DNA of 64,000 nucleotides from Sphingomicrobium flavum (GTDB taxonomy: Bacteria; Pseudomonadota; Alphaproteobacteria; Sphingomonadales; Sphingomonadaceae): assembly GCF_024721605.1 (NCBI RefSeq), contig NZ_CP102630.1:1178001-1242000 (forward strand), in the 5' to 3' direction. The notes under the pieces were generated by a model. That model made no database searches. It saw only the letters and a list, made by a program, of their open reading frames with translations, and had not been told where the DNA came from. Positions 49,517 through 54,631 of the stretch are shown one piece after another. Both the position numbers and the translations under genes were made by a program. The first letter of the stretch is position 1, and every line of letters starts with the position of its first letter.

Positions 49517-49927
49517 ATGCGCATCTTCATTCCAGCCATCGCCATTTGCTCGCTCGCGGCCTGCGCCAGCGAAGAACCGGTCGAGCCCATCGAAAATGCG
49601 GAAGTCACCGAGCCTGCCACGAGGGATGACATGTCGCCCGCCGGCATGACCTTCGAGGTCGAGGGCGAACCGGGCGTCGACCGCACCGCATTCGGCACGG
49701 ATGGCACCTTCACCGACTATTTCGAAGGCGAACTCCACCGCACCGGCACCTATGAAATGCGCGACGATGGCACGCTCTGCTTCACCTATATGGGCGGTGA
49801 TAATGTCATGCCCGAAGAAGTGACCGAATGCTGGACCATGGACGGACCGCCCGATGAAGAGGGCTGGGCCAATTCGACCCGCATCTCCGACGGCCTCACC
49901 ATCCGCGCCCGCCCGATCCAAAAGTGA
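49517..49927 (+). CDS. Small lipoprotein, family copy 1
   Basis: A 136-residue lipoprotein (MRIFIPAIAICSLAAC, lipidated Cys16). An acidic linker is followed by a domain containing DDGTLCF...TECW, in which the two cysteines probably pair. The same signature recurs in the proteins at 51699 and 52290, so the three are paralogues. Function unknown. The ATG lies 2 nt after the U-tract of the thiolase terminator and has no Shine-Dalgarno, so it would need read-through, an upstream start inside the hairpin, or a leaderless transcript. Confidence 0.78.
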   Translation: MRIFIPAIAICSLAACASEEPVEPIENAEVTEPATRDDMSPAGMTFEVEGEPGVDRTAFGTDGTFTDYFEGELHRTGTYEMRDDGTLCFTYMGGDNVMPEEVTECWTMDGPPDEEGWANSTRISDGLTIRARPIQK

Positions 49928-50594: not shown

Positions 50595-50793
50595 CCGGCT
50601 CCCAATCGTCGATAAACAGATCCTGCACCGGCACCGCGAACAACTTCGACATGCGCAGCGCCAGCGGGAGGCTCGGGTCATATTTGTCCGTTTCGACCGC
50701 GTTGATCGTCTGGCGCGATACGCCCAGCCGCCGGGCAAGCTCGCCCTGGCTCCAGCCGGCCTGTTCCCGCCAGATCTTGACCCGATTCTCCAT
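50584..50793 (-). CDS. Minimal XRE-family repressor
   Basis: A 69-residue protein that is almost entirely one helix-turn-helix: VKIWREQAGWSQGELARRLG, then VSRQTINAVETDKYDPSLPL, a layout typical of small autorepressors (YozG-like). The acidic tail WEPDDE ends over the start of the membrane-protein gene. Start ATG 50793 has AAGG upstream. A perfect 35-bp palindrome begins 17 bp upstream of its start and is the obvious candidate operator. Confidence 0.9.
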   Translation of the reverse strand: MENRVKIWREQAGWSQGELARRLGVSRQTINAVETDKYDPSLPLALRMSKLFAVPVQDLFIDDWEPDDE

Positions 50794-50809
50794 CTTGCCT
50801 TCACACCTA

Positions 50810-50844
50810 TGTAAAGAGCTCTTGACAGTCAAGAGCTCTTTACA
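50810..50844. promoter_or_regulatory. Perfect 35-bp palindrome, probable operator
   Basis: TGTAAAGAGCTCTTGAC (50810-50826) and its exact reverse complement (50828-50844) flank a single A. It holds a TTGACA box on + and TTGACT on -, so it overlaps likely -35 elements of both divergent genes. Each 17-nt arm contains an inner AAGAGCTCTT-type palindrome, allowing two dimer sites. Confidence 0.85.
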
Positions 50845-50881
50845 CCCATCGCAACTTTTGGGTTATGAAAGGGTTGGCAGG

Positions 50882-51637
50882 ATGATGACCTCCACGCCCA
50901 AAACCGCCCGCCTCTACCGCATGGTGAAGCCCAAACATGTCTGCCCGTTCGGGTTGCAGGCGCTCCACCTTTTGAAGTCGCGCGGATACCGGGTCGAAGA
51001 TATCCACCTCACGACCGCTGAAGCGACCGAGGCATTCAAGGCCGAACATGGCGTCAAGACCACGCCGCAAATCTTCATCGGGGACCAGCGCATCGGGGGA
51101 TATACCGACCTGCGCACCCATTTCGGCCTCGCCAACCCCGATCCGGACAAGAAGACCTACCGCCCCGTCATCGCTTTGTTCGGGCTGGCTGCGCTGATGG
51201 CCTTCGCGCTGGCCAGCGGCGTAGTGCTGAACGGGCGCCCGTTCGAACAACGCTTCCTCGAACTTTTCATCCCCATCGCCATGTGCATGCTGGCGCTCCT
51301 GAAGCTGCAGGACGTTCGCAGCTTCGCGCGCATGTTCCTGGGCTACGACCTGCTGGCGCGGCGCTGGGTGCCCTATGCCACCCTCTATCCCTTCCTTGAG
51401 GCGACTGCGGGCGTGTTGATGCTGGGCAAACTCCTGCCCTGGCTGTCGGTACCGACCGCATTGTTCATCGGCACCATCGGAGCGGCCAGCGTCATCTACG
51501 CCGTGTATATCCAGAAGCGCGAGCTCAAATGCGCCTGTGTGGGCGGCAACAATAATGTGCCGCTGGGCTTCATCAGCCTGACGGAAAATCTGATGATGAT
51601 CGGCATGGCGTTGTGGATGGGCCGGCACTTGATCTAA
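50882..51637 (+). CDS. Glutaredoxin-MauE/DoxX-like fusion membrane protein
   Basis: A 251-residue protein. Residues 8-80 are a glutaredoxin domain with a monothiol CPFG site (Cys21), TTPQIFIGD with the cis-Pro near 62, and GGYTDL. The rest is a four-helix MauE/DoxX-like membrane domain (VIALFGLAALMAFALASGVV; FIPIAMCMLALLK; TLYPFLEATAGVLML; LFIGTIGAASVIYAVYI) with a cysteine pair CACVGG near 220 as in MauE redox partners. GAAAGGG lies eight bases before ATG 50882. It is divergent from the small XRE repressor across the palindrome. Confidence 0.86.
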   Translation: MMTSTPKTARLYRMVKPKHVCPFGLQALHLLKSRGYRVEDIHLTTAEATEAFKAEHGVKTTPQIFIGDQRIGGYTDLRTHFGLANPDPDKKTYRPVIALFGLAALMAFALASGVVLNGRPFEQRFLELFIPIAMCMLALLKLQDVRSFARMFLGYDLLARRWVPYATLYPFLEATAGVLMLGKLLPWLSVPTALFIGTIGAASVIYAVYIQKRELKCACVGGNNNVPLGFISLTENLMMIGMALWMGRHLI

Positions 51638-51698: not shown

Positions 51699-52124
51699 AT
51701 GAAAAAGCTCATTTTACTCACCAGCTGCGCCGCGCTTTGGGCCTGTGCCGACAATGCCGCCGAAGAGGAAACCGTCGCTGAAGAAAATGCCGTTGCGGTC
51801 GACGAAACCGCCATGGCCGAAGACAGCGCGCCCGAACCGATCAGCTACAGCTGGGCCGGCGAAAATGGTGAAGCGATGGTCATGTCGATTGATGCCGAGG
51901 GCAATTATATCATCGAAGCCGACGGCGAACATCTGGACCATGGCACCGTCAGCACGAATGACGCGGGCAAAGCCTGCTTCACCAGCGAGATGGACCAGCC
52001 GGCCAGTTGCTGGACACAGACCGATCTGGAAGTGGGCGGTTCGCAGGAGACCACTTCTGACGATGGCATGACCGTGACGGTCACGCGCACCGAATATGTC
52101 GAACTGGCGATGCCGGGCGCCTGA
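51699..52124 (+). CDS. Small lipoprotein, family copy 2
   Basis: A 141-residue lipoprotein (MKKLILLTSCAALWAC, lipobox ALWAC). A Glu/Ala-rich linker is followed by a domain with DAGKACFTSEMDQPASCW and the C-terminal VTRTEYVELAMPG, paralogous to the product at 52290 (FTRAEYRQLAFEAPG) and more distantly to that at 49517. Function unknown. GAGGGA precedes the ATG. It is downstream of the glutaredoxin-MauE gene and ends in its own terminator. Confidence 0.8.
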   Translation: MKKLILLTSCAALWACADNAAEEETVAEENAVAVDETAMAEDSAPEPISYSWAGENGEAMVMSIDAEGNYIIEADGEHLDHGTVSTNDAGKACFTSEMDQPASCWTQTDLEVGGSQETTSDDGMTVTVTRTEYVELAMPGA

Positions 52125-52175: not shown

Positions 52176-52289
52176 CGTTAACCATAGACTGTCCCGTCGC
52201 GGGATGGCCACGGAACGCCGCGCCAGCGCTTCTCGTTTTGCTCCCGAACCAACAATTGCGCCGCCCCACCCGGCCAAGGGAGAATGAAT

Positions 52290-52748
52290 ATGCGTATTCT
52301 GATCAGCGGGCTTGCCGCCCTGGCGCTGGCCGCCTGCAGCGAAGGCGGGCTTGACGGCGAAGAAGATGGCGTTGCCGAAATCAAGGTCGCCGAAGACAAT
52401 GTCGCCATCGGTGATGAGCCGATCACCAGCGACCCGCGCTTTGCCGACACCGCCTGGGAGTGGAAGGCCAATGATGGCACCCCGCTCTACACCGTGCTCT
52501 ATGCCTCGGGCATCTACCACACCGCCGGCAGCGACGTGCTGCGCGACGAAGGACGCTGGACCGTGCGCGACGATCATCTCTGCTTCGACAGCGAAATGCT
52601 GAAGGACGAGCCCGGCTGTTTTTCGGCTGACGCCTATCGCCCGCTCGATCTCGGCCAGGTCTGGTTGACCGATAACCATGAAGGCGAAGCGGTTCGCTTC
52701 ACCCGCGCCGAATATCGCCAGCTCGCCTTCGAGGCGCCCGGCACCTGA
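52290..52748 (+). CDS. Small lipoprotein, family copy 3
   Basis: A 152-residue lipoprotein (MRILISGLAALALAAC). After an acidic linker the domain has WEWKANDGTPLYTVLYASG, DDHLCFDSEM...PGCF, and FTRAEYRQLAFEAPG, the fullest version of the signature shared with the copies at 49517 and 51699. Function unknown; the YxxxG and W-rich start suggest a small beta-barrel lipocalin-like or META-like domain, but this is only inference. ATG 52290 is preferred over 52284 because AGGGAG is then well spaced. Confidence 0.8.
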   Translation: MRILISGLAALALAACSEGGLDGEEDGVAEIKVAEDNVAIGDEPITSDPRFADTAWEWKANDGTPLYTVLYASGIYHTAGSDVLRDEGRWTVRDDHLCFDSEMLKDEPGCFSADAYRPLDLGQVWLTDNHEGEAVRFTRAEYRQLAFEAPGT

Positions 52749-53225
52749 TTATTCGAAGCGTTCGTCCTGATCGACGCCCCACAGCGCCGATTGCTGGATC
52801 CAGCCCACCTTGTCGCCAATAGAGATGCGGCATAGCGACCCATCGCATTCGGAAAGGCGGCCCACCACGCCCGGTTCGGCCCGGTATCTTACCGGGCTGG
52901 ACCGGTCGTCGTCGAGATGGATGTCAACCGGCTCCTCGCCCGTCACCATGCCGGTGCGCCGGTCGGCCAGCAGCGATACCGCCATCCAGCCCTCGGTGCC
53001 GTCCATGTCCTCGATCTTGCGCCAATTGTCATAGCGCTGCGTGACCCTGACCGGCATGTCGCGGCGCTGGTAGACCCAGATGCCGGGATAGGTCTTGCCG
53101 GGGCCGGTGCGCATCATGGCCTTGCCGCTGGCGATCGATGCCCAATAGGGCACCGCCCGGTCCTGCGCCGATGCCGGCATGGTCAGCGCCATGCCCACCG
53201 CAGCAATGACCGCCAGCGCGCGCAT
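52749..53225 (-). CDS. Secreted SH3-domain protein
   Basis: A 158-residue exported protein: signal MRALAVIAAVGMALTMPASA, then a bacterial SH3 domain starting WASIASGKAMMRTGPGKTYPGIW, followed by VRVTQRYDNWRKIEDMDGTEGW and a second half with Cys-x-Gly-x-Leu-Cys (ECDGSLC) and DKVGWIQQS. It may bind peptidoglycan or another envelope ligand. It is translationally coupled to the upstream nitronate monooxygenase-like gene (TGATG overlap) and converges directly with lipoprotein copy 3. Confidence 0.86.
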   Translation of the reverse strand: MRALAVIAAVGMALTMPASAQDRAVPYWASIASGKAMMRTGPGKTYPGIWVYQRRDMPVRVTQRYDNWRKIEDMDGTEGWMAVSLLADRRTGMVTGEEPVDIHLDDDRSSPVRYRAEPGVVGRLSECDGSLCRISIGDKVGWIQQSALWGVDQDERFE

Positions 53226-54631
53226 CAGGCGCCCGTCAGGATGCGATCGACCAGCTGCTTCACACTCGGCACGAACCCGTTGGAATAAAAGGGATCGGAC
53301 TTGAAGCGATAGGCGGCATGGCCCGCAAACATCAAATTCTCGTCCACCGGCCCGCCATGGGCGATGTCCTGCAGCGTCTTCTGAATGCAGAAGCTGCGCG
53401 GATCGGCCAGGCGACCGGTCGTATTTTTCTCATTGTCCGCCCAGCTCGAAAAGCTGCACTGCGACAGGCAGCCCATGCAATCGGCCTGGTCCTTGCGGAT
53501 CCATTTCATTTCTTCGGGCGTGACGAAGACCAGCGTATCTTCGGGCGTCTTCATCGCTTCGGTAAAGCCGGCGCCATACCATTCGCGCGCATGCTGCAAA
53601 TCGCCCTTGGTGACCCAGAAATTCTTGCGCGTGCCGACACCGACATCCAGCACGAAGCGATGGTCGCCCATCTCTTCCTTGGTAAAGGCGATCTGGCGCT
53701 CGGACCGCGCTTCCAGGTTGCGCAGGAACGGATTGCGCACCGCCGAGGAATAGAAACCCGTCGGCGAGAATTTGTGAAGGAGGACATCGCCCTCATCCAG
53801 CGTCATCAGCCGCGCCTTCCATTCGGGCGGGATCGGGCTTTCCTGCGTCAAGAGCGGGCGCGTGCCGAACTGGAAGGCGATGCCGCCCAATTCCTCATTG
53901 TCGATCCAGTCATTCCACTCATCCAGCCGCCAGACACCGCCGGCCATGATGATGGGCACCTCTTCGGACACGCCTTCGGCACGCATCATCTGACGAAGTT
54001 CGGCCACGCGCGGATAGGGATCCTGCGGCTTTTTGGGGTCCTCGGCATTGGACAGCCCATTATGCCCGCCGGCCAACCAAGGATCTTCATAGACCACCGC
54101 GGCAAGCCCGTCGGCAAATTTGGAATAAGCCCGCTTCCACAGCGCGCGAAAGGCGCGGCCCGAGGAAATGATGGGCAGATATTTGACCTTATATTCGGCC
54201 GCGATCTCGGACAATTTGTAAGGCATGCCCGCGCCGCAGGTGACGCCGTCGATCAGCCCCTTGCAGCGTTCCAGCACCCCGTGCAGGACGCGCGGCGCAC
54301 CGCCCATTTCCCACAGCACGTTGATGTTGATCGCGCCCTTGCCATTGGCCATTTCATAGGCCTTCTGGACCTGTGCGGTGGCGCCGTCGATGGCATATTG
54401 GATCAGCTCTTCATGGCGTCCGCGGCGGGTCATTTCTTCATAGACCTGCGGAATGATGCGCCCTTCGGCGTCATAGCTGTCGGCATTGACGGCACTGACC
54501 GTGCCGATGCCCCCAGCCGCAGCCCAGGCCCCCGACGATGCGTGATTGGTCGCCGAAACGCCCTTGCCACCCTCAACCAACGGCCAGACTTCCTTGCCGT
54601 TATACTGGATGGGCTTCAAACCCTTGAACAA
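53225..54631 (-). CDS. Nitronate monooxygenase-like flavoenzyme with C-terminal cysteine cluster
   Basis: A 468-residue TIM-barrel FMN oxidoreductase of the 2-nitropropane dioxygenase/FabK group. Family marks are VSATNHASSGAWAAAGGIGT near 25-44, PIISSGRAF near 152-160, DPWLAGGHNG near 182-191 and IIMAGGVWR near 223-231. It is about 100 residues longer than usual. The extension holds Cys385-x2-Cys388-x3-Cys392 (CMGCLSQC) and Cys415 (SFC), an arrangement that could bind an iron-sulfur cluster. Start TTG 54631 has AGGAG six bases upstream. Substrate unknown. Confidence 0.88.
   Translation of the reverse strand: MFKGLKPIQYNGKEVWPLVEGGKGVSATNHASSGAWAAAGGIGTVSAVNADSYDAEGRIIPQVYEEMTRRGRHEELIQYAIDGATAQVQKAYEMANGKGAININVLWEMGGAPRVLHGVLERCKGLIDGVTCGAGMPYKLSEIAAEYKVKYLPIISSGRAFRALWKRAYSKFADGLAAVVYEDPWLAGGHNGLSNAEDPKKPQDPYPRVAELRQMMRAEGVSEEVPIIMAGGVWRLDEWNDWIDNEELGGIAFQFGTRPLLTQESPIPPEWKARLMTLDEGDVLLHKFSPTGFYSSAVRNPFLRNLEARSERQIAFTKEEMGDHRFVLDVGVGTRKNFWVTKGDLQHAREWYGAGFTEAMKTPEDTLVFVTPEEMKWIRKDQADCMGCLSQCSFSSWADNEKNTTGRLADPRSFCIQKTLQDIAHGGPVDENLMFAGHAAYRFKSDPFYSNGFVPSVKQLVDRILTGA

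Follow-up and report, generated by a model that had tools for sequence, protein, structure and literature searches.

How does Sphingomicrobium flavum make its monounsaturated lipids? Its genome (2.34 Mb, one contig) encodes FabZ and FabF (TIGR01750 and TIGR03150, respectively, both over their cut-offs) and FabI (best PDB match at E 1e-122). FabA was not found in it, nor was FabB at E ≤ 1e-140, the sole FabB match being FabF, with 41% identity. Two FA_desaturase matches are present, one of them weak and with an internal stop, so that unsaturated fatty acids (UFA) could here also come from a desaturase. The match with the internal stop, at 391762-392370 of the genome, is possibly decayed; its longest open frame, taken alone, has no Pfam match. 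We approached the question through one gene, here called X, of the window, meaning the whole stretch of 64,000 nucleotides that was analyzed. X, now filed as a nitronate monooxygenase, is a likely answer to the missing gene for monounsaturated lipids: most likely, it does in S. flavum and in many of its relatives what FabA does in Escherichia coli.

The open reading frame assigned to X in a preliminary description of the window is present as proposed (Table 1), and the genome holds a single match for the gene. A homolog 80% identical to X carries the annotation nitronate monooxygenase, and X matches PF03060, the Pfam family of that name, at 39.1 bits (gathering score 28). However, PF03060 also contains FabK-type enzymes (PMC4029986), and thus this match does not decide the function. 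In the NCBIfam scan of X, every model scored below its cut-off. Between positions 52500 and 56700, one promoter-like site was observed versus 1.0 expected, and five terminator-like sites versus 2.4 expected (SD 1.8), all of them on the plus strand, inside minus-strand genes; repeats in this region are short and scattered only.

Table 1. Gene X, its predicted parts, and the adjoining gene (positions in the window)
Feature	Position	Strand	Description or basis
Gene X (ORF)	53225-54631	minus	468 aa, TTG start; probable long-form FabX/UfaA-type FMN/[4Fe-4S] enzyme (from sequence and model)
AGGAGAG, likely ribosome-binding site of the X TTG start	54642-54636	minus	Sequence
X residues 1-300: NMO/FabK-type TIM barrel including FMN-binding residues	53732-54631	minus	Pfam, model, residue mapping
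X His190 codon, equivalent of FabX catalytic His182	54062-54064	minus	H in 49/49 covering rows
X residues ~312-380: insertion without FabX/UfaA counterpart, fold not recognized	53492-53698	minus	Model, searches, profile-profile
X Cys385, Cys388, Cys392, Cys415: predicted [4Fe-4S] ligands	53387-53479	minus	Alignments
X residues 384-468: Fe-S subdomain (predicted)	53228-53482	minus	Profile, profile-profile
SH3_4-domain gene overlapping the X stop codon	52749-53225	minus	Pfam, neighborhoods

The structure prediction called for in the preliminary description gave a confident AlphaFold model (pLDDT 91.3, pTM 0.89, zero residues under 50), whose nearest relative by fold is FabX. Foldseek placed FabX entries at ranks 1-5 (best E 3.5e-22), and VIA-align superposed the model on FabX with a Z of 39.0 and an rmsd of 2.8 over 355/366 residues. 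Searches of PDB sequences had the same outcome, with Helicobacter pylori FabX on top both with the single sequence and with a profile; the profile of a 44-row alignment (A1) reached FabX at E 8.6e-32 and the best FabK at 2.7e-5. Entries named nitronate monooxygenase, nitroalkane oxidase, or 2-nitropropane dioxygenase scored Z 24.7 to 29.9, below FabX. The nitronate monooxygenase-like function first suggested for X is therefore unsupported, FabX being nearest by profile and by fold. The same ranking bears on a second possibility, that X is a FabK-like trans-2-enoyl-ACP/CoA reductase with nothing but its ancestry in common with FabX, whose cluster would feed electrons in for the reduction of enoyl thioesters. 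FabK belongs to the same superfamily and its NCBIfam model matches X weakly (TIGR03151, 36.2 bits, not reaching the cut-off of 453.1), and in Fusobacterium the inhibition of FabK is offset in part when FabX is overexpressed (PMC11091888). But the best FabK superposes on the X model with a Z of 31.1, behind FabX, as it does in the profile search; this reading is further weakened by the clear FabI encoded in the genome, and a second enoyl reductase would not be expected to exclude both FabA and FabB, as X does (see below). We regard it as quite improbable.

For residue comparisons we used an alignment of 50 rows, comprising the window protein and 49 homologs 43-79% identical to it. It covers 50 of the 110 genomes of the class that bear X, namely the best 30 (S. 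flavum included) and 20 further picks that are more divergent or come from small genomes. The FMN contacts N99, E175, Q240, and T243 of FabX, its catalytic H182 with the partner S273, and its ACP-binding R160 all map to X residues present in every row (49/49 for R160). In X, the FMN residues and the His-Ser pair correspond to N104, E182, H190, Q254, T257, and S289, each found in every row that covers it. At the position of R164, the key ACP residue of FabX, 43/49 rows have K or R, and K152 is replaced by R in 47/49. Two other ACP contacts of FabX are not kept in the X family: T130 became Y or F, and I156 mostly A. These residues also speak to the possibility that X is a pure trans-2/cis-3 enoyl-ACP isomerase acting on FabZ products in a role like that of FabM, with flavin and cluster serving a structural or redox-gating role. 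Such an enzyme would explain equally well the exclusion of FabA and the shared chromosomal block described below, and isomerization is one half of the FabX chemistry (PMC8626469). Yet every row keeps the side chains that contact FMN in FabX, together with the catalytic His and its partner Ser, which goes beyond what an isomerase should need, and we consider this alternative unlikely.

The four C-terminal cysteines pointed out earlier, Cys385, Cys388, Cys392, and Cys415, are all there with the spacing CX2CX3C-X22-C, and in the alignment they occupy all 50 rows and are hence not there by chance. For comparison, the positions of Cys123 and Cys132 hold a cysteine in 3 and 47 rows, respectively. 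They are likewise invariant in A1. In FabX, the [4Fe-4S] ligands are C300, C304, C308, and C320 (PMC8626469). The same four cysteines are found in all of six FabX/UfaA-like proteins that we compared (from Fusobacterium, Neisseria, Cupriavidus, Variovorax, Parabacteroides, and Pseudanabaena, 33-41% identical to the first of them), with CI at the fourth. X departs from the H. pylori spacing, with gaps of 2, 3, and 22 residues and ~70 extra residues where FabX has gaps of 3, 3, and 11 and no insertion. However, the gaps also vary among the six proteins (3 or 5 for the first, 7 to 12 for the third), so we did not treat spacing as defining. A profile-profile alignment of the X family with the six proteins, run twice, gave E 4.1e-41 over 361 columns and reaches the C-terminus; in it the cysteine columns line up, all four of them, save for a gap of one residue between the first and the second. 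In this region F435-A436-G437 of X aligns with F339-T340-G341 of FabX, which contact FMN (PMC8626469). In the PDB-sequence profile search, the cluster region of X by itself scored only 2.8 bits; what supports its homology to FabX is the fold together with the profile-profile alignment. The extension is thus very probably a [4Fe-4S] site; the preliminary description had considered an iron-sulfur cluster possible on the basis of these cysteines. It had also suggested that the cluster feeds electrons in, whereas the cluster of FabX stores an electron temporarily next to FMN (PMC8626469). Its suggestion that the extension changes the reaction is consistent with our results, the reaction of X being probably not nitronate oxidation. 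The extension is no novelty in itself, as FabX/UfaA proteins of the same superfamily already have it.

What is peculiar to X is the insertion of ~70 residues, which sits between barrel and cluster and is modeled as beta-beta-alpha-beta-beta-alpha. Folded alone it reached a pLDDT of 80.6. Searches against the PDB returned nothing at E ≤ 0.001 (the lowest E was 0.19), and a consistent family was not found in Pfam; weak matches, or their absence, do not prove that the fold is new.

The distribution of X is closely linked to that of FabA and FabB. Among 190 alphaproteobacterial genomes, 110 have X only, 64 FabA only, none both, and 16 neither (Fisher p 8e-36, with relatedness not corrected for). 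FabB, searched with an alphaproteobacterial query at E ≤ 1e-140, is present in 61/64 FabA genomes and in 0/110 X genomes. The copies of X in this sample are mostly full length, at 44-79% identity, and include those of genomes of 0.6-0.9 Mb. Before counting, we set the threshold for FabA at 220 bits, which comprises 60 genomes over the NCBI cut-off and four at 221-237 bits (G173, G054, G048, and G084); one genome with a 58-bit FabA fragment (G036, profile positions 2-48) was placed under neither. For X, 111 genomes matched, of which one weak match was dropped (G174, 33% over 69 residues, E 2.7e-4), and fragments split across contigs were counted as one genome. Most of the 16 genomes with neither gene are below 2 Mb and some are incomplete; 14 of them also have no PF00487 match. 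We observed the same pattern in 249 genomes across the phylum, where X (80 genomes), a more distant barrel match (45), and FabA (100) show zero overlap and 24 genomes have none of the three. The more distant group was defined by a barrel-only match (E 1e-28 to 1e-37), without regard to cysteines. Three genomes with weak matches (G391, G344, and G322) are in neither gene group; G322 has FabA. Among the 80 X genomes, 63 are labeled as the same phylum but another class. These copies, in genomes of families f157, f176, and f197, are never accompanied by FabA.

PF00487, the desaturase family, is matched in 48/64 FabA genomes and in 43/110 X genomes, and is absent from 67/110 of the latter. Among near-complete X genomes (95% completeness or more, whatever the contamination), 44/80 have no PF00487 match. 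These counts cover FabA, FabB, and PF00487 desaturases among the UFA routes, others being FabM, FabN, FabQ, FabZ variants, and acyl-ACP desaturases. Together with the absence of FabA and FabB from the S. flavum genome, this makes the source of monounsaturated lipids a gap in annotation.

On a third alternative reading, X would be a flavin enzyme that oxidizes nitronates or another small molecule and has no connection with lipids, and its exclusion of FabA would reflect nothing but old lineage splits. We placed both genes on an RpoB tree that comprises 120 of the 190 genomes (55/64 with FabA, 60/110 with X, 5/16 with neither), a tree of one gene obtained by a quick search, with tips chosen by trait. 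The X/FabA states require at least 20 changes on it, a number probably inflated by the use of one gene and a quick search. In seven supported independent pairs, none changed in the same direction and about six in opposite directions (median sign-test p 0.031). A model of correlated evolution was favored over independence with a likelihood ratio of 107, and none of 2000 independent simulations reached the low number of exceptions seen in the data (genomes with both genes plus those with neither, at most 5); four of the 2000 also had zero genomes with both genes, but more that lacked both. As the tips were chosen by trait, these correlated-evolution figures are indicative. The mutual exclusion of X and FabA is complete in the samples searched and survives the RpoB-tree tests. 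Since it survives them, includes FabB, and goes with a shared block of genes, a lipid-unrelated oxidase is very improbable despite the PF03060 match and the annotation of the close homolog; on fold ranking and distribution, we rejected nitronate monooxygenase as the function of X.

The shared block emerged from 20 of the 64 fabA neighborhoods and 20 of the 110 X neighborhoods, picked by the length of their contigs before inspecting their genes. Homologs of irr (14/20 fabA and 12/20 X neighborhoods), rubrerythrin (rbr; 11/20 and 10/20), an SH3 gene (12/20 and 11/20), and a D-2-hydroxyacid dehydrogenase (GDH; 10/20 and 10/20) occur beside both. In many genomes the block takes the form fabI-fabB-fabA/irr/rbr/SH3/GDH or X/irr/rbr/SH3/GDH. 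One representative of each block gene was assigned, to IrrA (over the NCBIfam cut-off), 2-Hacid_dh and SH3_4 (over the Pfam cut-offs), and Rubrerythrin. The complete arrangement irr > rbr > < SH3 GDH > occurs in 4/20 fabA neighborhoods (three of them with fabI, fabB, and fabA all adjoining) and in 8/20 X neighborhoods. It has the same relative orientation beside either gene, with fabA reading away from irr and X towards it. The block is absent (no irr, no GDH) from 6/20 X and 1/20 fabA neighborhoods, and two loci (L319 and L322) show other arrangements. The simplest account of these counts, made around fabA and X as the sole anchor genes, would be a swap of fabA-fabB and X at one site, in one direction or the other.

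In the window itself, the preliminary description had noted an SH3 gene coupled to X. The two genes do overlap by one base (TGATG), but the coupling is not conserved. We inspected two sets of loci: the best 80 listed, with 4-kb flanks (77 of them titled as Sphingomonadales and one as an unplaced alphaproteobacterial MAG), and 29 from the class sample, with 1.5-kb flanks. An SH3 homolog lies within 4 kb of X in 55 of the best 80 loci listed, and follows X immediately and in the same orientation in 9 of these 80 and in 0/29 of the class sample, so we rejected it as a functional partner of X. nadC, directly upstream in 1 of the best 80 and in 0/29, was rejected as well. No irr, rbr, or GDH homolog was found in the 64-kb window, where the SH3 gene is the sole member of the block; it most plausibly belongs to an old neighborhood, as a probable remnant of the irr/rbr/SH3/GDH block. 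As to the loci, two of the listed copies of X, in records titled Arthrobacter sp. TPD3018 (L070) and Microvirga sp. SRT01 (L111), are 81% and 78% identical to that of the window, which suggests misnamed assemblies.

Four other genes of the window, all on the plus strand, drew attention. Three of them (49517-49927, 51699-52124, and 52284-52748) encode small secreted or lipoprotein-like proteins without a Pfam match, which share a layout of a signal-like start with a Cys, an acidic linker, and a paired-cysteine core, and look like divergent paralogs. The gene at 50651-51637 encodes a glutaredoxin domain fused to a MauE-like membrane domain; its listed ATG may precede the true start.

We conclude that X is very likely a long-form UFA-synthesis enzyme of the FabX/UfaA type and a counterpart of FabA-FabB, with its activity, substrate, and electron acceptor assigned by analogy. 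This reading draws on the predicted fold, the cofactor residues, the conservation of the cysteines, the homology of the cluster subdomain, the exclusion of FabA and FabB, and the shared block; the actual cluster, the substrate and product, the acceptor of the electrons, and what the insertion does are inferences. By analogy with FabX, whose substrate in H. pylori is decanoyl-ACP, X would act on a medium-chain saturated acyl-ACP. His190 and FMN would remove hydrogens from C2-C3, and the trans-2 product would be isomerized to cis-3-enoyl-ACP. One electron may be parked on the putative [4Fe-4S] cluster of Cys385/388/392/415 while the flavin is reoxidized. Elongation of the cis intermediate by FabF would then yield long-chain monounsaturated acids, and in genomes without FabA and FabB, X would take over the work of both. 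The electron acceptor is O2 in FabX; UfaA reportedly functions under anaerobic conditions, its acceptor being unknown (PMC11300592), and thus oxygen need not be the acceptor of X either.

UFA synthesis by proteins of the NMO superfamily in species without FabA is already known, from FabX and UfaA. Homologs of FabX above 50% identity were reported in 31 genera of 7 phyla (PMC8626469), a cut-off that the X family, 20-26% identical to FabX, would miss, and a Ralstonia relative was suggested to act in UFA synthesis (PMC4549310). Among the papers that a literature search listed, judged by titles and abstract openings and not including the original 2011 UfaA and 2016 FabX papers, we found no assignment of the alphaproteobacterial X family to UFA synthesis. 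We therefore describe X as a new, long-form variant of the FabX/UfaA kind, with a surprising spread. The flavin/iron-sulfur dehydrogenation route has been placed mostly in microaerophilic and anaerobic bacteria (PMC8626469); if our reading is true, much of a bacterial class would use it too, which would matter for questions of oxygen, iron, and drug targets. A bolder version, which we put forward tentatively and hold to be possible rather than probable, is that a large part of the Alphaproteobacteria and at least one other class make UFA with an unrecognized long-form FMN/[4Fe-4S] "backtracking" enzyme, that this enzyme was swapped several times with fabA-fabB at one site, and that the extra domain links it to an electron acceptor that is not free oxygen, which would let aerobes use it without steady release of superoxide.

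Among known systems, X most resembles H. pylori FabX (PDB 7E1Q; PMC8626469), with which it shares the NMO TIM barrel, the FMN contacts, the catalytic His, the C-terminal four-cysteine subdomain, and a genome without FabA and FabB. It differs from FabX in length (468 versus 363 residues), in cysteine spacing (CX2CX3CX22C versus CX3CX3CX11C), in the insertion of ~70 residues before the cluster, and in single positions, K23 standing where FabX has the FMN-contacting M24, and Y138 where its ACP site has T130. UfaA of Neisseria gonorrhoeae (NGO1024), which supports UFA synthesis without FabA and is reported to be essential for anaerobic UFA synthesis (PMC4549310, PMC11300592), belongs to the same superfamily and also has four C-terminal cysteines; unlike X, it spaces them as CX5CX3CX12C, and its identity to X is ~30%, over the barrel only. 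(We took a Neisseria sequence, L277, to be UfaA; its record carries no annotation.) FabK (PDB 4IQL, 2Z6I) has the barrel, FMN, and catalytic His of X, but catalyzes what would be the opposite reaction, and its NAD(P)H-binding motif is replaced in FabX by the Fe-S domain (PMC8626469). Bacterial nitronate monooxygenases (PDB 2GJL, 4Q4K, 5LSM) share the PF03060 fold, although with lower structural similarity to X than FabX has, and the cluster was reported to be absent from all other characterized members of the family (PMC8626469). Finally, X resembles FabA-FabB of the classical anaerobic pathway in its probable function and, in many genomes, in its chromosomal block. The FabA and FabB proteins are unrelated to X, and their chemistry is one of dehydration and isomerization.
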